Shown here: positions 12,095 to 45,282 of the stretch, piece after piece | How positions within the stretch are numbered: position 1 is the stretch's first letter | Layout: each line of letters opens with the position of its first letter | From: Polaribacter sp. | GTDB taxonomy: Bacteria > Bacteroidota > Bacteroidia > Flavobacteriales > Flavobacteriaceae | Reading direction: 5' to 3' | DNA: 64,000 bases | Assembly (NCBI GenBank): GCA_018663625.1 | Contig: JABJPX010000052.1 | Span: forward strand, 1 to 64,000 | Program-made: the position numbers and the translations under genes | Notes under the pieces: generated by a model | Told to the model about the DNA's origin: nothing | Database searches by the model: none | The model's input: the letters and a program-made list of their open reading frames with translations, nothing else

Positions 12095-13516
12095 TTACTT
12101 ACCTTCCGCTGCTCTTGCATCTAACTGAACTCTCGTTTCAATTGCCTTTTCTTCTGATAAATCATAATCCCACATTATATAGATGGCGATTATAGTTCCA
12201 AGCATTGGTAATCCTGAGAAAAATAAACGCAATCCGGTAACGGCCTCTACAGTTTGAGTCTCAGCTCCAGAGTCCCATCCAATAACAGAAAAAATCACCC
12301 CAGTTAAACCACCTGCAATTCCAAAGCCAAATTTCACCATCCACCAATAAATTGCTCCAAAAATTCCTTCGCGGCGTTTCCCTGTGTTTAATTCGTCTAA
12401 ATCAATAACATCAGCCGTCATCGACATCATTAAGGTGAACAGTCCTCCAATACCAAACGAAAAGAATGGCAATGCTAATAAGAATAGATAGGGTTTCCCT
12501 GGTATGAACAAGAACCAAAGCATGATATATCCGACAATGGAAATAGATTGAGAAACTAAAAAAGCTTTCTTTTTACCAATTTTTTTAGAAATCTGTGTAA
12601 CGAATGGAATGACTAAGAAAGTAGTGATTAATGCACCTACACAACCAAAAAGAGTTGGCCACAAACCAGCTCCAGAACCATCGAATAAATAGTGAAGAAT
12701 TATAAAATAAGAAAATGCTGCCACTGTATTAAAGGCATTGAATACTAAAAAGGTCGCCATGCATAATTTCCTAAATGCTTTTATTTTGAGTGCTTCCTTA
12801 AAATTAATTACAAAAATTGTGTGCAAACTTTTAAAAATATTTTCAAAAGTAATACTGTCGTATTTTTCATTTAGAGTTGATTTTCCTTTAATGAAAATTG
12901 CAGGAATGATCGCTATAATCATACAGATTAGTCCCACCCATATGGCTAATTCTCTTACGGCTACTTCTCCTGATTCAAAGAACCCTTGCCCTGGATCCAT
13001 AATCACCCATAGCCATGGAGCAATTACCCATGCCCATTGACCTATAAACTGAGCAATCCCCATAATATTGGTACGCTCATGAAAATCGTCACTCATTTCA
13101 TATCCCATTGCTACATAAGGAACACTAAAAATTGTTAAACCCAGATAAAAAACTAATGACCAAAAAAGAAAATATGCAAAATTATAATCAATCGAATTGG
13201 CTTCGTTCAATTGCCACATAATAATGAAAGAAATCCCCATGATAATGGCTCCTGATAAAACATATTGTTTTCTTCTTCCCCATTTAGATTTTGTGTTGTC
13301 AGAAATAAAGCCCATGATTGGATCTGTAATTGCATCAAAAAGTCTTGGTAGGAAAGCTACGAATCCCCACATCCAGCCTGGAAATCCTAAATTCTGAACA
13401 AGAACAACCATAAATATACTGATGACAGCAGGAAACATTTGATTGGCCAACATTCCCAAACCAAAAGCTATTTTTTGTCCCATCAGGACTTTTTTAGAGG
13501 TATTTGTATTCGACAT
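12095..13516 (-). CDS. GPH-family sugar:cation symporter (MFS)
   Basis: A 473-residue inner-membrane transporter with about 12 hydrophobic segments. The early motif FDAITDPIMGFISDNTKSKWGRRKQY (about 60-85) is the hallmark of the glycoside-pentoside-hexuronide symporters (MelB/XylP type), with the Asp residues used for cation coupling. The second half has DELNTGKRREGIFGAIYWW, also typical. As the last gene of the operon, 15 bp after GH30, it probably imports glucose or short gluco-oligosaccharides from the periplasm to feed the cytosolic phosphorylase. The exact substrate cannot be read from sequence. Confidence 0.92.
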   Translation of the reverse strand: MSNTNTSKKVLMGQKIAFGLGMLANQMFPAVISIFMVVLVQNLGFPGWMWGFVAFLPRLFDAITDPIMGFISDNTKSKWGRRKQYVLSGAIIMGISFIIMWQLNEANSIDYNFAYFLFWSLVFYLGLTIFSVPYVAMGYEMSDDFHERTNIMGIAQFIGQWAWVIAPWLWVIMDPGQGFFESGEVAVRELAIWVGLICMIIAIIPAIFIKGKSTLNEKYDSITFENIFKSLHTIFVINFKEALKIKAFRKLCMATFLVFNAFNTVAAFSYFIILHYLFDGSGAGLWPTLFGCVGALITTFLVIPFVTQISKKIGKKKAFLVSQSISIVGYIMLWFLFIPGKPYLFLLALPFFSFGIGGLFTLMMSMTADVIDLDELNTGKRREGIFGAIYWWMVKFGFGIAGGLTGVIFSVIGWDSGAETQTVEAVTGLRLFFSGLPMLGTIIAIYIMWDYDLSEEKAIETRVQLDARAAEGK

Positions 13517-13531: not shown

Positions 13532-15028
13532 TTATTTAGTTGATACTATAACAATCGTTTGCAATGCTTGTGCATTGATATGAATTGCTGTTTCTTTTTC
13601 GCCTAAGCGTAGTTTAAAATCCTTTTCTTTTTTCCCTTCATTAAAAATAACTACTGCGATAGAACCATCTGGATTTTTTGCTGCAGTAACTTGTAAATCT
13701 TTATCGGTACTTTCCAAACCAATTACTTGTGCATTGGGTCGAATATATTTGCTAAAATGTGCCATGGTATAGTACAACGGCGTAAAATAAACTTCATCTT
13801 TTTCTGGATCTACTAATATGGGTGCAACACACCAGTTTTTAAACCAATTTGGACCTCCTTGTTTGTCCAATACCATGTTCCAATCAATCCATCCATCTAC
13901 CCAATTGTTTAGGCAACCAATAATATCTCTAGCATATCGGTTTACAGGCGCATATTTTGGATGTAAATACTTATCTTTTTCTGATGCCCAGTCCCAACCC
14001 CAATCTGTGGCTTCTTTGGACCAATACCAAGCGTCATTTTTCCATTCAGGAATTTGAGAATCAATACAGCCTTCTGTTTCTATTAAATATTTATTAGGGG
14101 CTTTTTGATGTGCATATTGCAATGCCTTTGGAAAAACTTCATAGGTACTTTCATACCAATGAATTGCAGTTCCATCATAATATTTTGAAGAGGCTTCAGA
14201 AGCATACATTACATCTACCCACTCTTTGATACCGGCTCTATTTTGATCATATCCTAAAATAATTTTATCTCCATAACCATCTGCTTCTAACTTTGGTCCT
14301 AAATGATCTACTACAAAAGTGGTCATTTCTTTGGGTGAATAATGCATACTTTCCCAATTATTACCATTGCCATGAGGTTCGTTTTCTACTGTAAAACCCC
14401 AAAGATCAATTCCTTCTTCTTTGTAGGCATCTAAGTATTTAGAAAAAAACAAAGCCCAAGTATCATAGTATTTTGGCAATAACTTCCCACCTACCCATTT
14501 TTTATTGTCTTTCATCCAAGGAGCTGCTGTCCAAGGAGAAGCGATTATTTTAAAGCCGTCTTCAGAAACTTTCATAGCTTCTTTAATCATCGGAATTAAG
14601 TCATCTTGATCTTCTTGAATCGTAAAATGTTCTAATGTCATGTCTTCCGCAACAGGAGAATAGGAATACTGAGACAGGGAGAAGTCACATGAATTCATAT
14701 GGGTTCTAGTCAAGGAATAATTGGCACCCTCTTTTCCAAAATAGGCTTGAATAATGGTATCTCTATTTTTCTTACTTAACTTGTTTAGTAAATAGGCTGA
14801 TGATTCTGTAAACGCACCGCCAAATCCCGAAATCGTTTGAAATTTTTCTGCTGGATTTAAAACAATGGTTGCCGCGTTTTCAACTGCTGTGAAACCCGAA
14901 ACTTTTGTTAACTGATTTCCACTTTCCGAAGTTTCATATACTGTGACACTCAAATCACTTCCTTTTTGATTGCAACTTATGAGCATCATTAGGAATACTA
15001 TTTGAAAAATATGGGTTATTTTTTTCAT
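13532..15028 (-). CDS. GH30 family beta-glucanase/glucosidase lipoprotein
   Basis: A 498-residue lipoprotein (lipobox LISC, Cys19) with a GH30 (beta/alpha)8 barrel and its C-terminal beta-sandwich. The acid/base Glu217 sits in FTVENEPHG and the likely nucleophile Glu319 in LIETEGC, matching the GH30/glucocerebrosidase pattern. GH30 subfamilies 1 and 3 include beta-1,6-glucanases and beta-glucosidases; beside a GH17 and a beta-1,3-glucan phosphorylase, removal of beta-1,6 branches from laminarin is the most likely task. It is the fifth gene of the operon, 12 bp after GH17. Periplasmic or surface side of the membrane is not settled by sequence. Confidence 0.92.
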   Translation of the reverse strand: MKKITHIFQIVFLMMLISCNQKGSDLSVTVYETSESGNQLTKVSGFTAVENAATIVLNPAEKFQTISGFGGAFTESSAYLLNKLSKKNRDTIIQAYFGKEGANYSLTRTHMNSCDFSLSQYSYSPVAEDMTLEHFTIQEDQDDLIPMIKEAMKVSEDGFKIIASPWTAAPWMKDNKKWVGGKLLPKYYDTWALFFSKYLDAYKEEGIDLWGFTVENEPHGNGNNWESMHYSPKEMTTFVVDHLGPKLEADGYGDKIILGYDQNRAGIKEWVDVMYASEASSKYYDGTAIHWYESTYEVFPKALQYAHQKAPNKYLIETEGCIDSQIPEWKNDAWYWSKEATDWGWDWASEKDKYLHPKYAPVNRYARDIIGCLNNWVDGWIDWNMVLDKQGGPNWFKNWCVAPILVDPEKDEVYFTPLYYTMAHFSKYIRPNAQVIGLESTDKDLQVTAAKNPDGSIAVVIFNEGKKEKDFKLRLGEKETAIHINAQALQTIVIVSTK

Positions 15029-15040: not shown

Positions 15041-16354
15041 TTATCTTTTATATCCTGTGTTAGGAACCAATACGGTGTTCATTAATTCCTTTTTATCACC
15101 TTTAAATGTTTTTGTAATTGGGTTTCCATTTCGGCTTAGTCCTTTAAAGACATCTTTGTCTACGAGATCCCAAAGCCCATATTTTACAGCGCCATCTCGA
15201 GTAATCAAACCAAAATTATTTTCGGAACCACTCACATTATTAGGATCTTTCCAGGGTTCATCAAATGCTTCAAAAAAGAAACAAGAAATACCTTCTTTAT
15301 TCGTCCATGTTCGAAGTGCTTTATAATACAACCCTTGTTTATATTCGTCCGTTGCTCTAGATCCATTAACTCCGTAATGTCCGTTTGAAATCGTTGCCCA
15401 ACCGGTTTCACCAATATGAATTGGTTTCTCAATTCCAAGACTTTTCATATAGTTTGAAACTGCGTAATATTGATTTTTTGCAAAATTTAGAGCGCGCATC
15501 ATGGCAGCATCAACTTTTTCATTCTCTGAAAAATTCATCAAATGGTCTGGTGTTTTCCAAAAAGAAGGATTGTAATGAGAATTATGATACGGATAGGTAT
15601 GCATTGAAACATAATCTACTGCATGTATCAAAGCTTCTAAATCTTGGGAATGATAACTAGCATCTCCTCCACCCCAAGAAGAAAAATCATCGGAGCTTGT
15701 AATCCATAAGTCTTTACACAATGTACCCTCTTTTTTTAATTTTTGAAGGTGATTCACCCATTTTAAAATTATACTAGGCTGAACAAAATAACTTGTGGCC
15801 CATTTTACCATCGCTTCATTCCCCACTGCAATTACTTTTACAATATCTGGATATTGTTTTGCCAAAGCAACAGCTCTGTCAATCTCTCCGGAGTTTTGCA
15901 AACTTTCTTTGTTGTGATCTGGTACTGATGCAGACCATGCGTTTAAGCAATCAATCCAAGCGCCCAACATCACATACATTTCGAAATTGGGATCTTCTTT
16001 TTTAAGTTCGGAAATTGCTTTTAAAACATTGGCAGCATGAGGGAATTGAGTTTGTACATTGTAGGTTCGAATAATTTTAACCCCCATTGCAAAGAGAATT
16101 TTTAAATCTTCCTTCAATGCTGCTATCGTCGGCTGTATTTCTCTTGAATTCTCTCTGTATCCTCCATATGACATTGCCAAATAATTAGGATTTCCTAATA
16201 GCTGTGCAGCAGTTTTGGATGTTTTTTTGACAATTACATTTTCGGGAACTGAGGTGGTACAGGAAAGACTAAAAACCAAAACCACAAGAGCTATACTCAT
16301 ACTAAGTATTACTTTTCTAGGATTTCGGTATGTAATCATTCGCTTCTTTTGCAT
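15041..16354 (-). CDS. GH17 family beta-1,3-glucanase lipoprotein
   Basis: A 437-residue lipoprotein (lipobox SLSC, Cys32) of clan A. The GH17 acid/base appears as AVGNEAM (Glu180) and the nucleophile as HIGETGWA (Glu316); IIRTYNVQ and YVSMHTYPY are further family-like stretches. GH17 enzymes in marine Bacteroidota hydrolyse beta-1,3-glucan chains, preferring unbranched segments, which fits partnership with the downstream GH30. Its ATG starts one base after the stop codon of the phosphorylase gene, so the two are likely translationally coupled. No carbohydrate-binding module is attached. Confidence 0.9.
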   Translation of the reverse strand: MQKKRMITYRNPRKVILSMSIALVVLVFSLSCTTSVPENVIVKKTSKTAAQLLGNPNYLAMSYGGYRENSREIQPTIAALKEDLKILFAMGVKIIRTYNVQTQFPHAANVLKAISELKKEDPNFEMYVMLGAWIDCLNAWSASVPDHNKESLQNSGEIDRAVALAKQYPDIVKVIAVGNEAMVKWATSYFVQPSIILKWVNHLQKLKKEGTLCKDLWITSSDDFSSWGGGDASYHSQDLEALIHAVDYVSMHTYPYHNSHYNPSFWKTPDHLMNFSENEKVDAAMMRALNFAKNQYYAVSNYMKSLGIEKPIHIGETGWATISNGHYGVNGSRATDEYKQGLYYKALRTWTNKEGISCFFFEAFDEPWKDPNNVSGSENNFGLITRDGAVKYGLWDLVDKDVFKGLSRNGNPITKTFKGDKKELMNTVLVPNTGYKR

Positions 16355-16355: not shown

Positions 16356-19300
16356 CTATTTATGGATATAAACGATTATCTTTTTTACTTCACCAGTTCT
16401 TTCAAATATTTTTTGACTTACCGCTGCATCTAAAACCAAATCTTCAAATTCTTTGGTGGATGCATCTTCAAAAAACACCTCAACACCTTTTTTCTCAGAA
16501 ATCTTATAAATCACTGGAATTTGACAATAGGTAAAACAAAAAGTATTTGCTTCTAAGTGTAGCGTCTTTTTGCTGCTGTCAAGATCGACGTAGGTAAAAT
16601 CTTTCGAAGCGGTTAGAAACTCTTCTTTTCTTAATAACTTTGGATTGAACTGCAACTGTCCGTCTTTTACAAAAACACCGATTTCTCCAAATCTCGAAAG
16701 AATATCTTCCTTCACTTGGCCTGTCATTCCTGGTTGTTGTGCTCCTTTTCCTGCCGGTGTATGTGAATATGGATCTGTTGGAAATGCTCCATATAATTCT
16801 GGTGACTTATGCACTCCAATACCTTCATTTATTTCATAATAGTGCTCTAACAATCTTCCGATTACGACTTCGCTTTCATTCTCATTAATTGCCAATAAAC
16901 AGTTTTCTTGAGCTGCGATTAACAATTTCGAAACCATGTGCCAGTAAATAGATCCTAAACCTTCATAGCCAAAAAATGTTCCAGATCTTCCTGTAAAGGA
17001 TTTATGATCAAACATTTCTTCATAAATTGCTAAAATGAGTTTTTCATCCTTTGCTAATAATGATTGGTACTTATCTGAAAGTGTATCCAACGTTTCTTTT
17101 AATCGAATGCCATTGTTAAAATTGGCATTAAAATGATAAGCGCCTGTGATGTCTTTTTCGATGATCTGTGTATTGCCATCTGCTAAAAGTTGACCTAATA
17201 ATTCCGACTTTTCTACGGATGCAGCTGGAATAATATTTTTGCTAGTAAACCTTGGTAGGTCTTTATTTGGATATAAAATATAACTGTATTGATCGTCTCT
17301 AAAAAGAGCACTTGCTTTTAAACCATCCAACACAGACAACGCTTCTTTTGCAGATAAATAGCCAGAACTTAAAACCGCTACTTGACCTTCTAACATTTCT
17401 GACAGGTAGGAAATAGACACCTCGGTATCGCTTTCTACGGTCATTAAATTATAGGCATGATACAAATTATCTGTACGTTTATTAGCAGCTATTGTATGAT
17501 CTAAATATTTTTTAAGGACATTGAAAAACGAAGTTAAATCGCCTTTTGCAATTGCTTCCTTATCACTTGTAAAACCGGTTTCGTAAATCGTAGTTCTATA
17601 GGTGCTTCCTGCTTTTCCAAGGATGTCTAAAAGTGTTTTCCGGTCTGCATCTGAAATTTTACCTGACAATATGCTGACATTGCTGTTCAACGCTAAAGCT
17701 ACAGATTGGAAAAAATTTGTTAATTCTTTTGAAACTGCATAAGTTTCTTCTGAAGATTTTTCTACAATATCTTCAAAGAAATTAATAAATCTTCTTAAAT
17801 AATAAAGCGTCACCATTGAGACACCATTTCCTACTAAGGCATTGTTGGCATCGTTCCATTCTGGTCTTTGCGTGTTTAACCAAATACCCCCTTCTGGAAT
17901 AAAGTTAGAAACTTTTGCCAATACGGTAGCGAGTAATTTCTCTATTAAATTCACTTTATGGATAAAGAAATTTTCGTCTCTCAATAAAGCACCATCAGCA
18001 CCAAGTCTTTCTTTCTCTTCTTGAATTTTTTGATCTAATTTTGCATCAAAATCAATCGTGTCTTTTGGGTCTTTTAAAGTGTCTTCATAACTCTTAATTA
18101 CATAAGGAACATTCGCATATACAAACACATCTTCTGTGAAGTTTTTGGCCAATTTGTTCGGGTAATATTTTTCTATAAATTCTAAGAACTTTAATAAATA
18201 AATAATTTGATGATCGCCCCAATACCCAATATATGACCAAGGGTCGTTTTCTTCAATGGTTTCCCAATCGAAGCCATCTTTGGTTACTCGATACGGGTTG
18301 TATCCTTCAAAAGTTGTTGCGTTTAAAAACTTATAGATCATTCCTTCAATAAACTCTGGATAAGAATGCGCTAGGGCTTCCCAGTTTTGAAATATATCTC
18401 TCCAGTTTCCTTCGTAATCTAAAATTTTTGAACCGTCTATTTCACTACGTGTATTGATAGAAAATTTGTTCCAAGGTCTACTTGGATCTCCATGTCTTCT
18501 ACTAAATTTTAACGGTAAATACTCATAACAAAGTCTTTTGAAGTTAGCGTCAAAGTCAGCATCTGCAATGCTTTTTATAAAATCAACATTGAAAATTTCT
18601 GGTAAATTCTTTAAAACTTCTTCTTTCTTTTTGGTAACTTTCTTATTTGCTTTTGAAATGTATTTTATAAAATCTTCTTTTTCAATTTGATAATTATCAT
18701 CAAAAATACCACCTCGCATAATATTAAAAAGGGTATTCGCAAAATGCCTAGTGTTTCTAGGTTGATTTTCTCCCAATTGCAATCCATCAGACCCAGCAAC
18801 TAACTGCACCAACTTTGCTGTTCCTATTTCAATATCTTCTTGGAGCAAAGCAGTAACATCTGGAGTATTTGTTATGATTTCTTTAGTTTCTTGTATCGAA
18901 ATAAGGTTCTGATTTACATTTGCTACCAACATCCAAGAAATTGGATTGTTAGGCGCTAGCGTAAGATCCTGCACAGTGAAGTAAGCTCCTTTTTCTGCCT
19001 TTATATCTTCTTCTTGATGTACTTCTTCTCCTTTTCTGAAAGCATTTAATTGCAAAGACGAAATTAAATACGTCGGATTTTTAACACCTGTAGACCAAAC
19101 TGTATTTGCTTTTAAAGCTTCGCTTGGTTCCGCTTTATCTACAATCACAGCACTCAAAGCAAAAATCCCTAAACCTGTATCTTTTTCTAATTCACATTTT
19201 TTATAAGCATCAATAAGATTACTTGTACTATTTTGAAAATCTGAAGCAATTCCGTAAGGTAAAATATTTTGAATACCATCTAAAATAGTAACCTCAACAG

Positions 19301-19823
19301 CTGCAGTAGTATTATTTTGTACCGTAGATTTTTTTACAAAACCAAATTTTGTACTTGTATTCCATTGGTACTGAAAAGTAATTCCTAAATCTTCATTAAC
19401 TTCTTCAAAAATAAGTTTGTTTCCATAATTATTTTTGTACAAATTCCTTTTGATAGCATATACACCTTCATATTTATTTGAAAATGGTTCCCAAAGAAAT
19501 GTTTTATCGTCTTTATGAACATGAAGGATGGTTTTAGATCCTGTAATGTCTGAAGATTCCGTTATTTTATCGTCGGTATAGTATGGAAAGAAAGCGTTCT
19601 CAGCATTTTTTCTACCTGCAGATAAACCACCATTGCTTGAAATAAACATCCAGTGGTCTGAATTGCTCACAAGACTTATGAAAAAAGGTCTCATTTTATT
19701 GCTATTCGAAATTTTATAATAAACCTCGTTTTCAATAATTACTTGTGCTCCACTCACTTCTAAAGAAGGGTTATAAGCGCTATTTTTTCCTAAAAAAATC
19801 GGATTCTTCGTCATATAATACAT
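16356..19823 (-). CDS. Large cytosolic beta-1,3-glucan phosphorylase, GH149/GH161 type
   Basis: A 1155-residue protein without signal peptide, so cytosolic. Its build resembles the GH94-related phosphorylases: an N-terminal beta-sandwich (about 1-300, with SSNGGLSAGRKNAENAFFPYYTDDKI-like residues at 62-87), then an (alpha/alpha)6 barrel with SRRHGDPSRPWNKF (about 441-454) and EGNWRDIFQNWEAL (about 471-484), and a long C-terminal part. The length is far above GH94 and fits GH149 or GH161, which phosphorolyse beta-1,3-gluco-oligosaccharides to glucose-1-phosphate. I cannot choose between the two families by eye. It is the third gene of the operon, just before GH17. A second in-frame ATG at 19814 is an alternative start. 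Confidence 0.8.
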   Translation of the reverse strand: MYYMTKNPIFLGKNSAYNPSLEVSGAQVIIENEVYYKISNSNKMRPFFISLVSNSDHWMFISSNGGLSAGRKNAENAFFPYYTDDKITESSDITGSKTILHVHKDDKTFLWEPFSNKYEGVYAIKRNLYKNNYGNKLIFEEVNEDLGITFQYQWNTSTKFGFVKKSTVQNNTTAAVEVTILDGIQNILPYGIASDFQNSTSNLIDAYKKCELEKDTGLGIFALSAVIVDKAEPSEALKANTVWSTGVKNPTYLISSLQLNAFRKGEEVHQEEDIKAEKGAYFTVQDLTLAPNNPISWMLVANVNQNLISIQETKEIITNTPDVTALLQEDIEIGTAKLVQLVAGSDGLQLGENQPRNTRHFANTLFNIMRGGIFDDNYQIEKEDFIKYISKANKKVTKKKEEVLKNLPEIFNVDFIKSIADADFDANFKRLCYEYLPLKFSRRHGDPSRPWNKFSINTRSEIDGSKILDYEGNWRDIFQNWEALAHSYPEFIEGMIYKFLNATTFEGYNPYRVTKDGFDWETIEENDPWSYIGYWGDHQIIYLLKFLEFIEKYYPNKLAKNFTEDVFVYANVPYVIKSYEDTLKDPKDTIDFDAKLDQKIQEEKERLGADGALLRDENFFIHKVNLIEKLLATVLAKVSNFIPEGGIWLNTQRPEWNDANNALVGNGVSMVTLYYLRRFINFFEDIVEKSSEETYAVSKELTNFFQSVALALNSNVSILSGKISDADRKTLLDILGKAGSTYRTTIYETGFTSDKEAIAKGDLTSFFNVLKKYLDHTIAANKRTDNLYHAYNLMTVESDTEVSISYLSEMLEGQVAVLSSGYLSAKEALSVLDGLKASALFRDDQYSYILYPNKDLPRFTSKNIIPAASVEKSELLGQLLADGNTQIIEKDITGAYHFNANFNNGIRLKETLDTLSDKYQSLLAKDEKLILAIYEEMFDHKSFTGRSGTFFGYEGLGSIYWHMVSKLLIAAQENCLLAINENESEVVIGRLLEHYYEINEGIGVHKSPELYGAFPTDPYSHTPAGKGAQQPGMTGQVKEDILSRFGEIGVFVKDGQLQFNPKLLRKEEFLTASKDFTYVDLDSSKKTLHLEANTFCFTYCQIPVIYKISEKKGVEVFFEDASTKEFEDLVLDAAVSQKIFERTGEVKKIIVYIHK

Positions 19824-19882: not shown

Positions 19883-21292
19883 TTAGTTGTAAAAATAAAG
19901 ATTGTCAATAAAAATTTTGGAGCCATCTCCACCTTCTAATATCAACTGTGCCATATTCGATCTACTGCCCAAACCTGTTAAACTCGAAAAAGGCAAATCG
20001 ATGGATATCCAACTTTGAGATACTAAGGTTGGTGCTCTAAAGGTTGTTGAATGTCTGGTGTCATCTCCACCTCCATAAGAACCATCTGCGCCAAAATCTA
20101 CCAAGAGAACTCTAAATTCTCTACCTCCGGCTATCGGACCTGGAATGTATGCATCTAAATGAAAATGTGTCATCGATGTAGCATCAATAGTTGGTGCACT
20201 AAATTCCATTCCCACAAAATTAAAGATGGTGTATTGTAAAATATTGTCGCCATCTACAGTGAAATCATCTGACAATGTTGTTTGCCAAGGTGCCCAATAG
20301 CCATTATAATAGTTTACTGGCACATTGGTATAAGCATCTGAAAATAATGAAATTACATTTGCTGGATCTTGCGTAGGAATAGGTGCATGTGAAAACGCTC
20401 CCAAAGAATTGATGGTTAGGCTTCCGGATACTTGTTGGTCATTAAAGCTAGCTGTTATGACAGCAGTTCCCGATTCTAATGTGGTAACTACGCCAAAGTC
20501 ATCTACTGTAGCAACACTTGTATTCGATGAATTAAAGGTTAAATAAGCTGGAGAGATCGAGATAGTTTGAGAAATCTGATCTGTAAAATTAAAGGTTGCA
20601 GAAACTCCATCTATGGTTGTTTGTACACCATTAAAAGAGGTAATTACTTTGTCGTCTCCCTCTAAAATTAAAGCTTCAATATCTGAAATAGTTCCTAATT
20701 TTTCAAACTTCACTTCATCAATCCAAAAGCTATATCCTTCTCCATTTTCTGGGCCTTCTGCATACCAAAGCAATCCTTTTTCTTGTATTAATCTGGATGC
20801 ATCTGGAATTGGGATTACATATTTTACCCAATTTGTGGTCAATTGCAATCCTCTTTTACTTACTTCAAATTTGTTTTCTCCAAAATCTTGACCAAAACCG
20901 ATATCATTAATTTTTGCCGATTGTGTTGCTTTTGCCCAAAAAGTTAAGGCATCATACTGTGTTAAGTTTCGTCCACCATTGTCATCTCTAAAAATGGCTC
21001 CTGCATAGGCTCCAGCTGGATCTCCTTCTACAGGTACATCAAAACGCATCGAAGAGCTTCCTTTGTATTTTTCTTCTGTGTCTACAGAAAAAGCTTCGAA
21101 TTTAGAATTTAAATACGGGTAGTATTCTAATCCACTACTAAACCCATCGATATAAACATCTGGGGATGGTGAAAAGGTTGCCAAAACGACATCTTCTGAA
21201 AGTGCTCTTTCACTTTCACACCCAATAGTTACTACTAAGAGTAAGCTTAAAAGAAGGGTGATTTTTGAATAAATTTGTTTTTTAGTTTTCAT
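19883..21292 (-). CDS. Surface lipoprotein with Ig-like domain and repeat module
   Basis: A 469-residue lipoprotein (lipobox TIGC, Cys about 25). Residues about 45-200 form a CBM-like beta-sandwich (SGLEYYPY...FWAKATQSAKIN...WIDEVKFEK). Next comes a bacterial Ig-like (Big_2-type) domain (about 215-295, VTTLESGTAVITASF). The C-terminus is one copy of the window's repeat module (about 300-469, ANVISLFSDAYTNV to FIDNLYFYN). It has no catalytic signature. It lies 12 bp after the glycosidase-barrel gene and 59 bp before the phosphorylase. The most likely role is a surface glycan-binding protein of the laminarin system. Confidence 0.82.
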   Translation of the reverse strand: MKTKKQIYSKITLLLSLLLVVTIGCESERALSEDVVLATFSPSPDVYIDGFSSGLEYYPYLNSKFEAFSVDTEEKYKGSSSMRFDVPVEGDPAGAYAGAIFRDDNGGRNLTQYDALTFWAKATQSAKINDIGFGQDFGENKFEVSKRGLQLTTNWVKYVIPIPDASRLIQEKGLLWYAEGPENGEGYSFWIDEVKFEKLGTISDIEALILEGDDKVITSFNGVQTTIDGVSATFNFTDQISQTISISPAYLTFNSSNTSVATVDDFGVVTTLESGTAVITASFNDQQVSGSLTINSLGAFSHAPIPTQDPANVISLFSDAYTNVPVNYYNGYWAPWQTTLSDDFTVDGDNILQYTIFNFVGMEFSAPTIDATSMTHFHLDAYIPGPIAGGREFRVLLVDFGADGSYGGGDDTRHSTTFRAPTLVSQSWISIDLPFSSLTGLGSRSNMAQLILEGGDGSKIFIDNLYFYN

Positions 21293-21304: not shown

Positions 21305-24300
21305 TTATTGTTTTCCAACATTAATATGAATGTATGTTCTAATTTCCCATTCAGAACCGTTCGACTGTCCTGCAAGGTTTAAAGTAGAAGCATCTGTACT
21401 GCTAAAAGTATATCTCGGAGAATATTGATCTAGCGATCTCCAAGTTCCGCGAATTCCCATTTTGGTATTAGGCAAAACAAACCAACCTGGTTTTCCTAAA
21501 GTGGTCGAAAAATCCAACATCAATTGGGTTGGATACGTTAGGTTAAAATCTCGGTGATAATCAAAAGGCCCCCAATCATTAAACTTTGCGGTAGCGGTTA
21601 CTTTCAATTTATTGTAAATCATACGGATATCTCCACCCGATCTTGTTATCAATCGTGCATCACTTCCGTTCGCTTGACCATTTCCATAATAGAGGTTAGC
21701 AATAAACCCAAAATCTGGACTCATTTTAGAAACAATTCTTGAATTTACTTCCCAAAGGTCTTCAGCAGGTGCTGATTCTCCAAATGCAAAAATTGATCGA
21801 TTGGAAAAGAAACCGATTGCAGCATCTTGTGTTGTTGGTAAGTGTCTGTATACAAATCCTAAATTCATCGCAAAATTTGCATCTTCTGCACGGTCATTAT
21901 CCCATTCGTACATCCAAGTTCCTGGTGTTGGATCGTAAGTAAATAAAATTTCTCCTGCAGTCGTTTCTCTGTTGCCTCTTACCACAAATGGATCTGCTTG
22001 TATGTTTCTTAATCTTCCTGGAGCATCAATACCGTTTGGCATGGCAGCAACAAGGGGTTTTTGCCATAAAAAGTTGGGTGCAATTTGTAAGTTTCCTGAA
22101 CTGAATGTAAATCCTGTTAAAAAGTTTGCCTGATTCCCACTTCCATTGTCTTTCAATTTCCAGCCTGTAAAAGTAGTAGTTGCATCGGCACCTCCGTTTG
22201 CAACAAGTCCCATTACAGCAGATTGTGCATACCAGTTAAAAGTTCCTTTGGTATAGGTCACTTTTAATTTACTTCCCCAGTTATCGGATGCTTTCACTCT
22301 ATCTACCACAACATCACTTGTACCGTCATTATTGTATCTAATATCTTGGTATTCTCTTCCGTTTAAGGGTTGACCTCCCCAGATACCTCCTAATTGGAAT
22401 CCGAAATTATCGTATTTTCTTTCCAATGCTAGTGTCAATCTACGTGTTTGAGGTAAAGGAATAAAACCAGATGTTTGTGCTTCTCTAGTATCTCTTTTAT
22501 TAACATCTTCATGAAACACACTTGTAAAAGTGTATTTCCCGATTTCTGTACTGTATTTTAAAAGCAATGCTGGATTTGCTCCCCACCATAACTGAGGTCC
22601 AAAAGCGGCTTTTAATCCTTCCAAAACCCCTTTACCATCTACTTCAATACCTAAAATTTCACCTCCGTAAATATCTAAATTCGGTCCATAATTTGCTTCT
22701 GGATATAACCCAAAAACATCACCTTCATATTGCCAATGGTAATGACCTGTTCTATAAAATCCTCTCACATCAAAAGCATCTGATTTCCAATCGAAAGATG
22801 CATTGTAAACTTGGACTCTATTATTGTCTGTAAGGGTTACGTTTCCATCGTCTGTGTTAACCACTACAGGACGATTTCTGTTTTCGTAGAATATTTCATC
22901 GATCGGATTTGCAGCTACATTCCCTAAAACATTAACATTCACTTCTGCTCTCATATTTGCAGAAGGTTGTGCTTGCACTCCTATAAAATAAGATTGCATA
23001 TGATCGAAACCAGTTCTATTTGGATAGCCTGTGTTTTCTGGATCTGCAATACTTGGCGTGGTTAATAAATCTCCTCCTGTATTGAACGTTGTAAATTCTG
23101 CTCTTAAATTACTCAGACTTATTTTTTCGTTACTCCCCATTGTAGCTTTACCGCCTCTTGCTCTTAAGACGCCGTCCATTAAACTAATATTCGAAAAATG
23201 TTTTGCTACTGAAGTGGATGTTACTCCTTCATCATATGGATTGATGCGATGTGCTTCTTGTAAGGAATAATAAGCTGCTCTGGGGTATAAAGTATACAAT
23301 CCTGCCGCGTTTGTAGGTCCTTTGGCACAGATTCCAAACCATTCTTCGTTCATATTATTTCTTCCTTCTTTGAAATCTATATAATAACCTCCGTTGGACC
23401 AAGAGGCATTGTTATCATGTACATCCAAATCTTTAGTTTGACCAAATTTCCACCAACCGTCACTAAACTGAAAAGTAAAACCACCTAATGAGTTTCCTGC
23501 TTCTCCTAATCCGGCAGCATTTTGATAAATTTCTCTCCAGTTTTCAACCATAAAGTGCGCTTGCATTTTTTGATCTTCTTCATTGGTAACTGCATTGAAT
23601 GCATCCGCTCCAAATTCTGTAAACATGATAGGCATGTTTAGTTCTTTTTTTACTCTTTTAAAGGCATCTCCAAATGACTTCCCGCGATACATATTTGTTC
23701 CGTAAATGTCTACATCTTTACATTCTTTTGCAACAATATCCAAGAACCCTAAATCACCATTACAAATAGCAACTGGATGCGAACGATCCATTTCTTTCAT
23801 AGCTACTGCTGCCTTGTTAAACATTTGATATAAATACTTGGCAGCAACAGAATAATCATCTTCATTGATAGGTAGGTCTTCCGTTTCGGCTCCTTTCCAT
23901 ACCAGTCCATAATTATTTTCATTTCCTAATAGGTACATCAGTAAACCAGGCGTGTTTTTATATTCATTAACAACATCTGTAATTTCTTTCAATAAAACGG
24001 CTTGTGTAGTAGGATCGGCATAATCTGTCTTAGCCACCCATGCGCCATTAACCGTCAATCCATACCTACCAAATGAATGATTTAACATGGTATGAATTCC
24101 ATATGTTTCGTAGATATAGGTAATCCATTTTGGCTGAATACCCGTGTATACACGAATCGTATTTACACCCATATTTTTAAGCAAGCTCATTTCTGCATCT
24201 AAGGCTACCTTAATAACATCTTCAGATTGATTCCACAAACTATACGAGTAATTGGTGCCAATTGGAAAATAATCCCAATTCATTCCATTAATCATAAAGT

Positions 24301-24421
24301 CGTTTCCATTAACGGACAATTTAATTCCTTGCTGATTATCAATTACTTTAACATTATTTGCTTGGGCAAATAGGTTCAAAGAACAGCAAATTAAAATAAT
24401 TCTTAAAAAATGATTTTTCAT
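21305..24421 (-). CDS. Clan-A glycosidase fused to a predicted outer-membrane beta-barrel
   Basis: A 1038-residue protein with signal peptide (1-20, LFAQ). Residues about 25-395 form a (beta/alpha)8 glycosidase of the GH2-C/GH5-like clan: GVNTIRVYTG, acid/base in YLLGNENNYG (Glu168), nucleophile in IMFTEFGAD (Glu269), and GGFTFQFSDGWWKFG. Residues about 430-1038 show alternating aromatic/polar strands separated by Gly/Asn/Asp-rich turns, as in an outer-membrane barrel, ending EIRTYIHINVGK. The GH family cannot be named with certainty. As first gene of the operon with its own long leader, it may act as an outer-membrane-anchored beta-glucanase or transglycosylase. Confidence 0.8.
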   Translation of the reverse strand: MKNHFLRIILICCSLNLFAQANNVKVIDNQQGIKLSVNGNDFMINGMNWDYFPIGTNYSYSLWNQSEDVIKVALDAEMSLLKNMGVNTIRVYTGIQPKWITYIYETYGIHTMLNHSFGRYGLTVNGAWVAKTDYADPTTQAVLLKEITDVVNEYKNTPGLLMYLLGNENNYGLVWKGAETEDLPINEDDYSVAAKYLYQMFNKAAVAMKEMDRSHPVAICNGDLGFLDIVAKECKDVDIYGTNMYRGKSFGDAFKRVKKELNMPIMFTEFGADAFNAVTNEEDQKMQAHFMVENWREIYQNAAGLGEAGNSLGGFTFQFSDGWWKFGQTKDLDVHDNNASWSNGGYYIDFKEGRNNMNEEWFGICAKGPTNAAGLYTLYPRAAYYSLQEAHRINPYDEGVTSTSVAKHFSNISLMDGVLRARGGKATMGSNEKISLSNLRAEFTTFNTGGDLLTTPSIADPENTGYPNRTGFDHMQSYFIGVQAQPSANMRAEVNVNVLGNVAANPIDEIFYENRNRPVVVNTDDGNVTLTDNNRVQVYNASFDWKSDAFDVRGFYRTGHYHWQYEGDVFGLYPEANYGPNLDIYGGEILGIEVDGKGVLEGLKAAFGPQLWWGANPALLLKYSTEIGKYTFTSVFHEDVNKRDTREAQTSGFIPLPQTRRLTLALERKYDNFGFQLGGIWGGQPLNGREYQDIRYNNDGTSDVVVDRVKASDNWGSKLKVTYTKGTFNWYAQSAVMGLVANGGADATTTFTGWKLKDNGSGNQANFLTGFTFSSGNLQIAPNFLWQKPLVAAMPNGIDAPGRLRNIQADPFVVRGNRETTAGEILFTYDPTPGTWMYEWDNDRAEDANFAMNLGFVYRHLPTTQDAAIGFFSNRSIFAFGESAPAEDLWEVNSRIVSKMSPDFGFIANLYYGNGQANGSDARLITRSGGDIRMIYNKLKVTATAKFNDWGPFDYHRDFNLTYPTQLMLDFSTTLGKPGWFVLPNTKMGIRGTWRSLDQYSPRYTFSSTDASTLNLAGQSNGSEWEIRTYIHINVGKQ

Positions 24422-24910: not shown

Positions 24911-24945
24911 AAAAAGGCAGTAATCTTACGATTACTGCCTTTTAA
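24911..24945. terminator. Terminator of the 57-aa membrane protein gene
   Basis: A 12-bp stem (AAAGGCAGTAAT / ATTACTGCCTTT) with a CTTACG loop and A/T flanks lies about 50 bp downstream of the minus-strand small gene. Confidence 0.85.
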
Positions 24946-31129: not shown

Positions 31130-31146
31130 AAAAGACCTTTATCTCT

Positions 31147-31179
31147 AAAAAGCGAAATCAAATTGATTTCGCTTTTTTT
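31147..31179 (+). terminator. Terminator between the two M1 genes
   Basis: A stem around AGCGAAATC / GATTTCGCT with flanking A and T runs follows the first M1 stop codon. The second copy therefore has its own transcription unit. Confidence 0.85.
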
Positions 31180-31290
31180 ATGACCAATTTTGACATTTAA
31201 TTTGGTAAAGATTTGTTAATTTTTTAACATTTTTTAACTCATTTAAATACAAATTCTTAATTTAGACGCCATTTCAAAAAACAATTAAAA

Positions 31291-37405: not shown

Positions 37406-37416
37406 GGTGCTATATT

Positions 37417-38910
37417 TTAGTATCCTGGGTTTTGAGACCAACGGTTTCCTGTTAATTGAATTTCTATCACTGGAATTGGAAACACTTCGTGTTTTCCTGC
37501 TACAAAACCATCAATTTCTTGTGCTGCTTTTCCTGTTCGTACCAAATCGAAAAATCGATGTCCTTCTCCAGCCAATTCTACGCGTCTTTCTTGAAAAATG
37601 TTTTCTGTAAGTGTAGCTCCTGTTGCAGTAATATTGTGCATCATGTCTCCAAAAGCACGTTGACGTACTCTGTTCAAGTAACCTTGTGCCTTGGCATCGT
37701 TTGGAGTTGCGCTCCTATTGAAGGCTTCTGCAGCCATTAATAAAACGTCTGCAAAACGAATCGATCTGTAATTGTTTGGATTGGTCAAGTTTCGATCTCC
37801 TTGCGCCGCATCACTTCTTTTTCTTGGAATGTATTTTCTGTTGAAAAAACCAGTATGCTCATTTCCTGTTCCGAAGGTAATTCCAGTTTGTGCTGCCCAT
37901 GCATCAATGTCTAAAACAGCTACATCTTTTCTTAAATCTCCCTCTTCAAATGCATCTGCAAGTTCTTGTACAGGAACGTTGAAACTAAATCCAGAGGAGA
38001 AAATATCTCCTTCAGATCCTGGTGTTGCAGAATAATTACGGATTCCGCTAAAACCAACTGCTACATTTCCTTCACTACATTGTAAACAACCGAAACCAGC
38101 TCCTTCTAATTCTGAGTATTGTACTTCAAAAACAGATTCGATGTTGTTTTCTCCTTCCATTTCAAACATGGTGTCGTAATCGGTTACCAAGTCATAAGGA
38201 CCGTTTAGAATCAAATTATCCAATACGGTTGCAGCTTCGTCAAATTTATCTTGATATAGGTATGCTTTTCCTAATAAAGCTTGTGCTGCCCCTTTTGTAA
38301 CTCTTCCTGATTCAGCTTGGGTATACGGTAAGTTGTCCGCAGCATAGATTAAATCCGATTCAATCTGAGCATATACTTGTGCTTTTGGAGTTCTGTCTAC
38401 ATTGAATTGATCTCCAAATAAAATTCTTTGATCCACCACTAATGGTACATCTCCAAACCACTTCACCAACTCAAAGTAATAGTAAGCTCTTAAAAAGCGA
38501 GCTTGTGCAAGAATTTCTTCTTTCCCTTCAAAATCGATATTGTCTTTAAACTCTAAAATATAGTTCGCTCTGTTGACTCCTGAAAACATCCATCCCCAAA
38601 TATCTCTTAATTGAACATTTACAGGCGTGTGTGTCATGTCATCTACTTCTTGAATTCCAATAACGTCAGTAGCGCTTTCTCCACCCGCTAAGGTGTTGTC
38701 GGAAGCAATTTCTCCTAACATTACATTGATGTAACTCGATTGTAATAAATCGTAAGCACCAATTAATGCATTTTGATAATCTTCTTCAGTATTGAAATAG
38801 TCTTCTGAATTCTCTGCTTGAGATTTTACATCCACAAAATCATCACTACACGAAAAACCAAGTGTAAGAAGAACGATTGCTGATAAAATCTTTATGTTTA
38901 TTTTTTTCAT
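37417..38910 (-). CDS. SusD/RagB-family glycan-binding lipoprotein
   Basis: A 497-residue outer-membrane lipoprotein (lipobox FSC, Cys21). The family's early NSEDYFNTEEDYQNALIGAYDLLQ, the middle ARFLRAYYYFELVKWFGDVPLV and the C-terminal RRVELAGEGHRFFDLVRTG are all present, marking the TPR-based SusD fold. SusD proteins form the lid of the SusC pore and deliver oligosaccharides. The gene is 11 bp after susC. It is complete, of normal length, and pairs with the adjacent SusC. Confidence 0.97.
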   Translation of the reverse strand: MKKINIKILSAIVLLTLGFSCSDDFVDVKSQAENSEDYFNTEEDYQNALIGAYDLLQSSYINVMLGEIASDNTLAGGESATDVIGIQEVDDMTHTPVNVQLRDIWGWMFSGVNRANYILEFKDNIDFEGKEEILAQARFLRAYYYFELVKWFGDVPLVVDQRILFGDQFNVDRTPKAQVYAQIESDLIYAADNLPYTQAESGRVTKGAAQALLGKAYLYQDKFDEAATVLDNLILNGPYDLVTDYDTMFEMEGENNIESVFEVQYSELEGAGFGCLQCSEGNVAVGFSGIRNYSATPGSEGDIFSSGFSFNVPVQELADAFEEGDLRKDVAVLDIDAWAAQTGITFGTGNEHTGFFNRKYIPRKRSDAAQGDRNLTNPNNYRSIRFADVLLMAAEAFNRSATPNDAKAQGYLNRVRQRAFGDMMHNITATGATLTENIFQERRVELAGEGHRFFDLVRTGKAAQEIDGFVAGKHEVFPIPVIEIQLTGNRWSQNPGY

Positions 38911-38921: not shown

Positions 38922-41900
38922 TTAAAAATTAAGATTAACTCCGAATAAAAAGGTCTTTGGATTTGGATAGAATCCTTGATCAATTCCACCACCAATTGGA
39001 CTTCCGTTAGAAGTTGTTGGATCGTATCCTTTGTATTTTGTCAATGTAAACAAGTTGCTAGCTGACACGTAAAAACGTACTGTATCAAATTGTAACTTCT
39101 CTAATTGGTCCGCATCAAATGTGTATCCCAATTGTATGTTTTGCAACCTTAAGAAAGAACCATCTTCTACATAAAAGTCAGAGAACAAGGTATTTCCTGT
39201 TGCTCCGGTAGTCACTCTTGGAGAAGTATTGCTTGTCCCAGGACCCGTCCATCGGTCTAAAACATAGCTTAGTCGATTGGTCAATGGTAAGTTTCTTTCA
39301 TAACTTCTTACAATTTCGTTTCCTAAAGAAGCAAAAGCATAGGCATTGAAATCAAAGGCTTTGTAATTGAACGAAAAGTTCATCCCCATAGTAATGTCTG
39401 CAATCGGATCACCGATATACGTTCTATCTTCATTGGTAATGGTTCCATCGCCGTTGGTATCTACAAATCTCAAATCTCCAGGTGCTGCATTGGTTTGTGT
39501 AGCATGTGCGTCAACATCTGCCTGGGTCTGAAAGATTCCGTTGGTTTCGTATCCGTAGAAATACCCGATTGGGAAACCAGCTTCCATTCTAGAGGGTGCT
39601 TGTTGCCCTACTCCAAAAGATCCACCTTCTATTACACCCGTCGCGTTTCCTACAAAAGTTACATTATTGTCTAATTTGGTAAAGTTGTAGTTGGCACTAA
39701 ATTTGAAATCTTCAGATACGGTATGATTGTATCCGATAGAGAACTCAAATCCTTCATTGACAACAGAACCTGCATTTACAATAGGTGCAGAAGCTCCAGG
39801 AGCAGAAACTCCTAAGATTCCTGACACTTGAGGTTTTAATAATAAGTCTTCAGTCGTCTTTTTAAAGTAATCGGCAGTAATATCTACTTTGTTGTTGAAC
39901 AAACTGATATCAAGACCTAGATCCAATGGAATTTGTTTCTCCCATTTAATTTCTGGATTAGAAATTGCGCCTAACGCCGTTCCATAGTTCAATTGATTAT
40001 TAAATACATAAGTTCCTTGTCCTGTTAATAAAGAAACGAAACCAAAAGATTCAATTCGATCGTTTCCGATGATTCCATAACTTGCTCTTAACTTTAAGTT
40101 ATTGATAACTTCTGAATCTTCCAGAAAAGCTTCATCCGAAACTACCCAACCCACAGAGGCTGTTGGGAAAAAACCAAACTTGTTTTTAGGTCCAAAATTA
40201 GAAGAACCATCTCTCCTTATAACGGCAGACATTAAGTACTTCCCTTTGTAGTTGTATTGCAAACGAGAAAAATAAGACAACAATCTACTGTCAAAAAATT
40301 GTCTTGGATTGTTGCTCAACGCTAAATTGTCTTGAGCACCTGGTGTAATACTCACACTGTTTAGGTCCGTACCTAACACCCCGTTTTGAGTAAAATTCGT
40401 ATCATTAAATCCTTGTGATCTAAAAACTGAAGTTCCTAACAATACTTTTACATTATGATCTTCATCAAAAGTATTTTCATAACTTACAAAAGCATCAAAA
40501 GTATAATCCTTATAGGTTTGGCTATATTCGTTAACACTCGGTACATCTGTATTAAAAACACTCCCGTTTCCAAAATAAGCTATTGGAGAGAATGATTTTA
40601 CATTTACTTTCGCATGATTGTATTGGTATCTTGCTTCCGCAGAAAAACCATCTAAAAACTGATAGTTCAATCCATAAGAACCCGAGATTTTATTCACCCA
40701 AGTTCTGTTATAGCTGTTATCTACCTGAGCGAGTGGATTGGCAACTTCAATACCCGTTCCTATTGCTGGAGGTAAAGAGAAATCACCGTTCGCATCATAA
40801 ACTGGCGTAGTTGCTGGCATGTTTAAGGCATTGAACAAAACAGATCCTAAAGCATTTTCTATTAAATTCTTTTTATTGGTATTTGTATAGATGGTAGAAG
40901 TTGTTAATTTCAACTTATCTGTAAGGTCTCTGTTGTAATTGAACTTCACATTTCTTCTATTAAAGTTGGCTTTGTCTCCTCCAACGATCCCGTCTTGGTC
41001 TAAGACAGAGACTCCTAATGAATAGGTAGATTTTTTAGTTCCTTTGTTCAAGGTATAATCCAAACTATAAATTGGTGCAGAATCAAAAACGGCCTTTTGC
41101 CAGTTTGTACCTTGTCCTAAACCATTTACATTTGGAAATGGTAAACTCTCTCCGTTGGCAGCGAAAGCTTCATTGGCGAGTAAGGCATATTCCGTAGCAT
41201 TTAACAATGAAATCTCTTTTGTGGTTTGTTGAAAACCTACATAATAATTCAAAGTTGATTTATAATCTGTTTCTTTCTTTCCCGTTTTGGTGGTAATCAA
41301 AATAACTCCGTTTGCACCTCTTACTCCATAAATACCAGCCGTTGCATCTTTTAATACATTGATGGATTCTATATCGGAAGGATTCACCACACTTAAATCT
41401 TCAATAACATTCCCATCAACTAAAATTAGGGGTCTGTTGTCTCCGTTGGTAGAAATTCCACGAATTCGAATGTTGGAAGCGGCACCAGGAGAACCTGAAG
41501 AAGCCGTAACATTTACACCGGCAACTTGTCCTTGTAATGCTTGCTCTATTCGAGTTGGTTTTAGTTGTTCTATGGATTCACTAGAAACGACAGATACTGC
41601 ACCTGTAACTTCTTTTTTACGTTGAGTTCCATACCCAATTACAACAATTTCGTCTAGCGACTCTGCTGAGGCTTTTAAAGCAACATTGATTGTTGTACTG
41701 TTTACAACTACTTCGTTTGTTTTGTAACCTAAGTATCTAAAAACGAGTGTTGCGCCTTTAGTTACATTCTTCAAACTGTACAGACCATCAAAATCTGTTT
41801 CAGTTCCAGTATTACTACCTTTAATAACGACACTAACCCCAGGGAGAATTTCTCCAGACGCTGCATCTTTAACAATTCCTTTTACATCCATCTTTTGTGC

Positions 41901-41981: not shown

Positions 41982-42028
41982 AAAAATAGACCAGAAAAAT
42001 TGCTGTATCAAAAAAATAACCGCAACTA

Positions 42029-42036
42029 AAAACATA
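42029..42036 (-). promoter_or_regulatory. TATGTTTT box upstream of susC
   Basis: On the minus strand this TAnnTTTG-like box lies 47 nt before the ATG at 41981. The same octamer recurs upstream of the other three PUL transcription units (complements of 24565-24572, 11789-11796 and 9865-9872). No -33 TTG at normal spacing is apparent, which fits an activator-dependent promoter. Confidence 0.5.
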
Positions 42037-42108
42037 CATCGCAAAAAAAACAACTTAACTCAATAATAGCTGAAAAAAAAACAAAGGACGAAGACTTTAA
42101 TTTAATGA

Positions 42109-44951: not shown

Positions 44952-45282
44952 TATTTTGGTTTGTTTGGGTACTAAATTAATCAAAAAATAGACACAAAGG
45001 GAATTTTATATAAATTGTAGTGCGAAAAAATTGTTTGGTATAGTTTTTAAATAAATTAAAAACACCCAATACATTTTAATATTATTGGTTTCATCGCTTA
45101 AAGACAAAGCTGTAAAACTGTTATAATAATTAAAAAATAAAGCAAAAAAAGAATATGATAAGCTATAAAATGACGATACCCTAAGTCTACTTAAGCCCCT
45201 CTCTTTAAAATTATATTGGACTTATGTTTACAAAATGCCCTCTCATGGCAGCATAAAAATTACATATCGTAAACGCTACTCT
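44952..45282. other. 331-bp gap upstream of the regulator
   Basis: AT-rich sequence between the cysteine desulfurase gene (which ends at 45283) and the regulator (which starts at 44951), both on the minus strand. It should hold the regulator's promoter. I could not find a convincing TAnnTTTG box, terminator hairpin, small gene or a copy of the PUL motif. Confidence 0.4.

Follow-up and report, generated by a model that had tools for sequence, protein, structure and literature searches.

Can cutting a glucan and taking it through the outer membrane be joined in a single polypeptide? This question is raised by a gene of Polaribacter sp. (Flavobacteriaceae, Bacteroidota), located in the first 64,000 nucleotides of contig JABJPX010000052.1 (GenBank assembly GCA_018663625.1), a stretch of DNA referred to here as the window. 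The gene (hereafter the fusion gene) encodes a clan GH-A glycosidase and a barrel-type domain, joined in one conserved chain. An earlier note, made from the letters of the sequence, had proposed an enzyme built into its own outer-membrane anchor or channel, in a gene leading the operon of a polysaccharide utilisation locus (PUL). The position at the head of the operon holds, the fusion gene being the first of six beta-glucan genes, while the two domains, their partner protein and their probable function are considered in turn below.

Conservation of the Fusion

The fusion gene is read on the minus strand from 24421 to 21305 as a single frame of 1038 codons, with an ATG start and no internal stop codons, which confirms the one chain that had been described previously without a strand. 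A scan of named genomes returned at least 591 candidate stretches, the best 80 of which were kept. These 80 loci match over nearly the full length with 63–96% identity, in frames of 1029–1068 residues, a few of which are cut by contig ends, and the named hits among them include Flavobacterium aquatile and Kordia algicida. Within the family of the window the enzyme domain is matched in 87 of 397 genomes, with an open frame of more than 1000 amino acids there in 78 of the 87 and a short, broken or cut frame in the remaining nine. Across the phylum (Bacteroidota), 47 of 395 genomes match the enzyme domain, 33 of them at full or nearly full length. The genome of the window itself carries a single copy.

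A frame error or chimaera joining two genes, the objection that the earlier note had raised against itself, is virtually excluded by the near-full-length matches in the kept named loci and the long open frames in the family, set against a few orthologues that are broken inside the frame (L115, L117, L119). In these three loci the lipoprotein gene described below still adjoins the broken frame, and the breaks may be sequencing errors or real pseudogenes. The alignments used here comprise 73 (A1), 34 (A2), 64 (A3) and 25 (A4) hand-picked sequences; they are shallow, the members of A1 having 64–71% identity to the query, two near copies excepted.

The Enzyme Domain

The N-terminal part of the chain is a clan GH-A glycosidase whose nearest solved relatives belong to GH157, GH158 and GH2. 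Glu168 (in YLLGNENNY) and Glu269 (in MFTEFGAD) stand in the translated frame where the earlier note had placed them and, together with Asn167, are invariant both in 73 aligned sequences and in a set of 25 enzyme domains, among them barrel-less homologues and relatives of 29–31% identity. In the structure model, predicted strand beta4 (residues 160–165) leads to Glu168 and predicted strand beta7 (265–270) to Glu269, and the domain therefore has the arrangement of clan GH-A, with an Asn-preceded acid/base Glu after beta4 and a nucleophile Glu after beta7, as expected of the (beta/alpha)8 enzyme proposed.

Assignment to a family proved less simple. The comparison with GH-family profiles that had been suggested was run with Pfam and gave Glyco_hydro_2_C (PF02836) at residues 71–279 (34.1 bits, cut-off 21), a model that is also matched at E ≤ 0.01 in 23 of 25 relatives; it did not lead to a single GH family, as GH2, GH157 and GH158 all lie near. 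Canonical GH2 enzymes carry N-terminal sugar-binding and Ig-like domains. These were not found in the fusion, for which the Pfam scan gave PF02836 only, and the TIM domain begins shortly after the signal peptide. In the structure search three relatives are tied, GH157 (Z 27.7, 319 aligned, root-mean-square deviation (rmsd) 3.4), GH158 (27.4, 295, 3.4) and a GH2 glucuronidase (27.4, 289, 2.9). A search of the Protein Data Bank (PDB) with the A4 profile, which includes three distant relatives, placed GH158 first (3.4e-12), followed by a GH2 galactosidase (1.1e-8) and GH157 (4.9e-8). An orthologue-only profile was weaker (GH2 0.0051, GH158 0.0069), and the single-sequence search gave GH158 at 0.61.

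The GH158 and GH157 enzymes (BuGH158, PDB 6pal; GH158(Pro), 9oro; LaGH157, 9g4n) resemble the fusion in their clan GH-A fold, in best or near-best profile and structure matches and in their beta-1,3-glucan context, but share just 18–22% sequence identity with its enzyme. According to passages of its description, BuGH158 likewise has Asn-Glu at the acid/base, with the acid/base after beta4 and the nucleophile after beta7, and differs in a C-terminal Ig-like domain that is without counterpart in the fusion, where the barrel takes its place (PMC7157763). Most barrel-less homologues stop approximately 20–40 residues past the TIM domain. GH158 is described in the same passages as acting on beta-1,3-glucans (PMC7157763), and a GH157 structure contains laminaritriose, as its PDB title states, both of which suit the operon; by analogy with these relatives and from its operon, the domain may be a beta-1,3-glucanase or glucosidase.

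The same enzyme domain also occurs in other combinations. In a genome of the same bacterial family it is fused to a GH16 glucanase domain, with no barrel (L116:10381-12435, minus strand), upstream of GH149 and GH17. Distant relatives with long N-terminal extensions are encoded at L110:8712-10133 and L112:9130-10527, and a carboxypeptidase-regulatory-like domain is found in 2 of the 25 members scanned, presumably these two.

The Predicted Barrel Domain

The last ca. 605 residues are predicted, with moderate confidence, to form a 24-strand outer-membrane barrel. Residues 434–1036 are modelled as 24 long strands, counted by hand, with two short predicted hairpins (residues 519–530 and 690–708) treated as loops. 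Confidence in the model is moderate, with a predicted local distance difference test (pLDDT) of 75.8 and a predicted template modelling score (pTM) of 0.54 for the whole protein, and values of 72.9 and 0.75, respectively, for the barrel alone. Strand boundaries come from this model and the following tests are not fully independent of it: the in/out alternation of hydrophobic and polar residues is 2.38 against 1.24 ± 0.19 in shuffles (0 of 2000 as high) and 1.02 in the enzyme's own strands, and the median length is 24 for loops after odd strands against 2 for turns after even strands (p = 1e-4). With the hairpins counted (28 strands), the alternation is 2.28 against 1.27 ± 0.18 and the medians are 19.5 and 2. 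The fusion, with strands taken from the model, thus shows the features of an outer-membrane barrel, namely a signal peptide (read by eye), an even number of amphipathic strands, and short turns and long loops on opposite sides. A loose lipobox pattern matched 4 of 81 fusion orthologues.

Structure searches point the same way. Foldseek gave 328 PDB matches at E ≤ 0.001, the 50 listed of which we take, by title or recall, to be outer-membrane barrels, and 49 of the 50 rows listed by VIA-align are presumably transmembrane barrels on the same grounds, the title of the engineered 9j9n being silent. AlgE comes first in the latter (Z 14.2–14.3, 294–310 aligned, rmsd 6.2–6.6, model residues 22–496), with MOMP, Occ porins and the usher PapC within Z 1 of it. 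The ushers FimD and PapC give Z 11.6–13.3 over 351–365 aligned residues with rmsd 4.3–4.7, the isolated FimD pore 3ohn having an rmsd of 6.2. These ushers and SusC cover most of the domain (structure matches span model residues 26–634), and closed barrels are among the proteins matched, though with the low TM-scores given below. Separate soluble beta-sandwich modules, the outcome named beforehand as fatal to a barrel, are not seen among the listed structure matches, which we take to be transmembrane barrels, so that the porin-type barrel of about 600 residues survives with structure prediction, structure search and strand statistics in agreement, at moderate confidence.

Sequence searches relate the domain to no described family, and the structure matches are of fold level only, so that families missing from the structure listings may still be relatives. 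A Pfam scan of the C-terminal part of the window protein gave nothing, a scan of 34 barrel sequences against Pfam gave nothing credible (nine families with one member each, best E 0.049), and the barrel profile found nothing credible among PDB sequences (best E 1.8, a TetR regulator). In the phylum, this profile matched 35 of 395 genomes at E ≤ 0.1, all within the 47 that match the enzyme. A barrel without an enzyme match occurred in 0 of 395 genomes, among loose first-look candidates only, so far relatives could be missed. The matching genomes include one gene split across two contigs (G204), a broken copy (G235) and a remnant (G119). The TonB plug domain PF07715 was not found in the fusion by Pfam, which matched it in the SusC-like protein at 38922-42053 as a positive control, and the C-terminal sorting domain of the type IX secretion system (T9SS) was likewise not found, with the window proteins at 6704-9793 and 10207-11610 matched as positive controls.

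The Predicted Lipoprotein Partner

Barrel and lipoprotein gene come and go together in evolution. The lipoprotein gene that follows the fusion gene encodes a predicted surface glycan-binding partner, in which a Pfam scan found a Big_2 match of 22.0 bits, just under the cut-off of 22.8, and no SusD match. A homologue directly follows in 99 of 99 barrel loci, with a median gap of 17 bp, and is absent at each of 11 barrel-less close homologues. Barrel loci were counted where at least 1.2 kb lies downstream (3 of 102 with less were left out) and where the barrel has more than 500 matched residues; among the 99 are L081, which is the copy of the window itself, and the broken-frame L117 and L119, with the partial loci L115 (lipoprotein adjoining) and L118 set aside. 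The 11 come from 15 barrel-less loci, L110–L112 (distant) and L113 (contig end) being left out.

As many of these loci are related to one another, independent changes were counted. When 60 enzyme domains are placed on a tree, barrel and lipoprotein each change seven times, and none of 59 rows is discordant. All six independent pairs on well-supported branches are concordant, giving a sign test p of 0.031, the smallest possible for six pairs, in a test designed after the pattern was seen, with a barrel defined by more than 300 matched residues and L118 dropped as its downstream DNA is missing. For the tree, one in three of L001-L080 was taken, and L081 (the window itself), L107 and L113 (contig ends), L119 (broken), and L110 and L112 (distant) were omitted, while L111 served as outgroup in the first tree only. 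A single clade of the 10 barrel-less loci is rejected (p-AU of the approximately unbiased test 4.6e-5, quick tree), and several of these loci sit on long branches. L108 is one clear case of barrel loss, since 54 barrel-like residues persist behind a stop codon after the enzyme (E 3.8e-11 for a match that includes the enzyme helices; profile E 1.4e-13). No significant remnant was found in the other nine barrel-less loci examined, so that changes elsewhere may have been gains.

Acidic tails after the lipid Cys are surface-export signals in Bacteroidota. At least two acidic residues at positions +2 to +7 are present in 47 of 52 lipoproteins and 13 of 14 SusD proteins, against 6 of 35 GH17 and 12 of 30 GH30 proteins, counted where the lipobox pattern was recognised (52/100, 14/20, 35/60 and 30/42, respectively). 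What seems to be a related binding-type module is found three times in the window, in the T9SS-sorted protein at 6704-9793, the lipoprotein at 19883-21292 and a protein with PKD and carbohydrate-binding module (CBM) features at 35414-37441; these three match the same places in other genomes (tblastn).

Proposed Function and Its Alternatives

As 24 strands are predicted and the short turns lie on the same side as both chain ends of the barrel, these ends would be periplasmic. The helices at residues 396–426 are assigned to the enzyme because barrel-less homologues retain similar sequence, and the tether from the end of these helices to strand 1 is then short, at approximately 8 residues. An enzyme at the periplasmic mouth appears to fit this model better than one pushed through the pore. 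Three barrel-less homologues examined from the family of the window (L101, L114, L116) have a signal peptide and, by eye, no lipobox. In L101 and L114 the chain stops shortly past the enzyme domain, with no room for a T9SS tail; the three enzymes are therefore probably periplasmic.

The best reading, to which we give about an even chance, would be a pore that lacks a plug, has a glucan-cutting enzyme tethered on its periplasmic side and is capped at the surface. Its pore function, the side of its enzyme and its coupling of cutting to uptake are what we infer from the features described above. The barrel would be inserted in the outer membrane with both ends periplasmic, and the enzyme would be held at the periplasmic pore mouth by its flexible tether of ca. 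8 residues to the first strand. At the surface, the lipoprotein would bind laminarin or its fragments and either cap the conserved outer loops or dock on them, while surface glucanases would release oligosaccharides to enter via the pore. The enzyme would then cut or trim the emerging chains, preventing back-diffusion, after which the lipid-anchored GH17 and GH30 would finish and debranch them, the MFS symporter would import the products and GH149 would phosphorolyse them in the cytoplasm. As it has no plug domain, the pore is probably not TonB-driven.

Whether the barrel does more than anchor the enzyme may be judged from its outer loops, which in ordinary porins are the most variable part. 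Here their mean conservation is 0.760 against 0.783 for the strands (p = 0.86), and 4 of the 12, namely loops 3 (561–582), 4 (610–616), 7 (738–763) and 11 (950–962), reach 0.90–0.99, with loops 3, 4 and 11 rich in Trp, Tyr, Phe and His. That the barrel merely replaces a lipid anchor for a glucan-cutting enzyme and conducts nothing important is accordingly judged unlikely: some 605 residues, with loops conserved on average like strands, exceed the needs of an anchor, a surface-type lipoprotein is paired with it in every one of the 99 loci, and L101, L114 and L116 lack both barrel and, by eye, lipid anchor. The existence of barrel-less homologues, among which a lipobox is plausible, by eye, in 5 of the 10 whose N-terminus can be read, and the ability of the same domain to be fused to a GH16 domain instead speak for such a role.

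Display in the manner of an autotransporter, with the enzyme passing through its own barrel to act as a surface laminarinase, is unlikely. Autotransporter enzymes have an N-terminal enzyme and a C-terminal barrel, the domain order of the fusion, and FimD, a 24-strand barrel matched by the model (361–365 aligned, rmsd 4.3–4.7, Z 12.9), lets folded domains through. Against this, both barrel ends lie on the short-turn side, the few residues between enzyme helices and strand 1 are short for crossing a barrel, and no autotransporter model of Pfam matched the window protein or the 34 barrel sequences. The barrel of type V autotransporters has 12 strands, half the number predicted here. An exopolysaccharide exporter, in which barrel and periplasmic hydrolase would export beta-glucan like AlgE, PgaA or BcsC, has in its favour that AlgE tops the structural list, although MOMP, Occ porins and PapC score within 1 of it, and is highly improbable in a six-gene operon of catabolic character (phosphorylase, GH17, GH30, sugar symporter), where no glycosyltransferase was matched among nine proteins scanned and where LuxR-type regulator, GH149 and GH16 accompany the orthologues.

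Several observations weigh against the pore with its tethered enzyme. Among the 50 PDB chains listed by Foldseek, TM-scores are 0.19–0.42 and rmsd values 11–18, and Z of 12–14 marks a fold-level match only, while the whole-protein pTM of 0.54 makes any arrangement of enzyme and barrel tentative. Two of the 11 supposed periplasmic turns reach lengths of 20 and 12 residues, and alternation is barely seen in strands 1 and 19 of the 24. Loops 1, 5 and 6 are poorly conserved (0.50–0.66) and aromatic residues are fewer in outer loops (0.10) than in strands (0.17). The plausible lipoboxes in 5 of 10 barrel-less homologues (L102, L104, L105, L106, L109) make an anchoring role possible. Finally, another uptake route is at hand, as the window also encodes a SusC/SusD pair and, of the 51 orthologous loci with full 10-kb flanks, 14 have a SusC homologue nearby.

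The co-variation of barrel and lipoprotein suggests an unrecognised route by which sugar is taken in and cut at the doorway. Tentatively, Bacteroidota may have, besides SusCD, a second and different system for taking glycans through the outer membrane, to which the fusion would belong. Its 24-strand pore would lack a plug, carry the glucan-cutting enzyme on a covalent tether in the periplasm and depend on the surface lipoprotein, and laminarin oligosaccharides would be taken in by catalytic trapping instead of TonB energy; we consider this reading somewhat less probable than not.

Relation to Known Systems

The SusC/SusD pair (BT1763-BT1762, PDB 5t3r) resembles the system described here in that an outer-membrane barrel gene adjoins a surface-type lipoprotein gene in a glycan locus, and SusC matches the fold of the fusion barrel with Z 12.7 (369 aligned, rmsd 5.0). 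The SusC barrel has 22 strands. The fusion differs in its 24 predicted strands, its lack of a plug, its covalently joined enzyme and a lipoprotein without SusD match. A simple replacement of SusCD by the fusion was considered and rejected, as SusC occurs near the 14 orthologues mentioned above and also near the barrel-less L101, L105 and L114. Fast 'selfish' laminarin uptake by marine Flavobacteriia has been tied to SusCD-like transporters in the passages available of one study (PMC6246565).

As a precedent for joining transport with cleavage, FbGH17b (FORMB_24740) of Formosa sp. Hel1_33_131 comes nearest. In those passages this MFS-GH17 fusion is likewise a membrane transport protein and glycosidase in one chain, linked to laminarin use by marine Flavobacteriia, and its authors knew of no such transporter-CAZyme fusion in other bacteria (PMC6246565). 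It is a 12-helix MFS transporter, unlike the predicted outer-membrane beta-barrel of the fusion. A frame resembling it was encountered at L108:8617-10968, in a genome of another family (f24), where a 783-aa MFS symporter frame that runs to the contig end matches GH17 in its C-terminal part.

The gene has very probably been seen before under another name. Laminarin PULs of Muricauda are described, in the parts of the report consulted, as comprising LuxR, a 'GH2 beta-glycosidase', one or two GH16 and GH149, with M. spongiicola 2012CJ35-5 among the strains named (PMC13188888). At the locus from this strain (L072), a LuxR-type regulator, the fusion, the lipoprotein, GH16 and GH149 follow in order, which suits that list; judged by this gene order, the 'GH2 beta-glycosidase' is very probably the same gene, named there as GH2 only, with no barrel mentioned in those parts (PMC13188888). 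The contigs do not agree, as the report cites JAMFMA010000001.1 and L072 lies on NZ_JAMFMA010000002.1. Among the papers listed from the open-licence PubMed Central literature, covered as titles, abstract starts and passages, with subscription papers and supplements outside this scope, none describes a glycosidase fused to an outer-membrane barrel, and the fusion of an outer-membrane transporter with an enzyme, constantly paired with a lipoprotein, would appear to be new.

Should the barrel prove to conduct, its union with the enzyme in a single chain would make a case of hydrolysis coupled to outer-membrane passage, for which the natural barrel-less homologues offer ready-made controls. The fusion is widespread among marine bacteria that eat laminarin and is annotated as a plain GH2 where it has very probably been described; its spread, its co-variation with the lipoprotein and the side preference seen in strand parity emerged from this analysis.

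Operon and Neighbourhood

The features of the fusion and its surroundings are collected in Table 1. The operon is a run of six genes on the minus strand from 24421 to 12095, with gaps of 12, 59, 1, 12 and 15 bp. Within it, GH30 matches the NCBIfam endo-1,6-beta-glucanase model with 244 bits, below the cut-off of 700.

Table 1. Positions of the fusion gene, its parts and neighbouring features in the window.
Feature	Position	Strand	Remarks
Glycosidase-barrel fusion	21305..24421	-	1038 aa, first gene of the operon
Signal peptide, residues 1-21	24359..24421	-	Signal-peptidase-I type, read by eye
Clan GH-A (beta/alpha)8 glycosidase domain, residues 22-395	23237..24358	-	Glu168 and Glu269
C-terminal helices of enzyme domain, residues 396-426	23144..23236	-	Similar sequence in barrel-less homologues
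Predicted 24-strand outer-membrane barrel, residues 434-1038	21308..23122	-	
Lipoprotein, predicted surface glycan-binding partner	19883..21292	-	Big_2-like module; acidic after lipid Cys
GH149 beta-1,3-glucan phosphorylase	16356..19823	-	NF058639, 1804.5 bits, cut-off 1150; no signal peptide by eye
GH17 glycosidase	15041..16354	-	Lipoprotein signal by eye
GH30 glycosidase	13532..15028	-	Lipoprotein signal by eye
GPH-type MFS sugar symporter	12095..13516	-	
Terminator-like hairpin	24912..24943		14 pairs; between operon and divergent fumC
SusD-like lipoprotein	37417..38910	-	Neighbouring PUL
SusC-like TonB-dependent transporter	38922..42053	-	Neighbouring PUL
Reg_prop/Y_Y_Y/LuxR-type regulator	42150..44984	-	Homologue in 43/51 orthologous loci

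Laminarin is a major algal storage glucan. The operon is one for beta-1,3/1,6-glucan, probably laminarin, and its composition is widely kept, with GH149 in 47, GH17 in 41, GH30 in 32, the MFS symporter in 26 and the LuxR-type regulator in 43 of the 51 orthologous loci. A GH16 gene directly follows the lipoprotein gene in L013 and L047, and a GH16 match is found at this place in L048, L067, L068, L072 and L078. L013 comes from a metagenome-assembled genome named for Formosa sp. Hel1_33_131, and we would guess that it is laminarin PUL 2 of this strain, a GH16 of which was, in the passages available, detected on laminarin only (PMC6246565).

A second glycan locus, at 35414-44984 of the window, comprises the regulator, SusC, SusD and the PKD/CBM protein, and its homologues lie just upstream of the fusion in L003, L047 and L058. 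The two loci may therefore be halves of one laminarin system. With the hairpin between the operon and fumC, five terminator-like sites were counted in 1.1 kb (both strands), against 0.3 expected, and two M1-type peptidase genes stand in tandem at 29009-33495.

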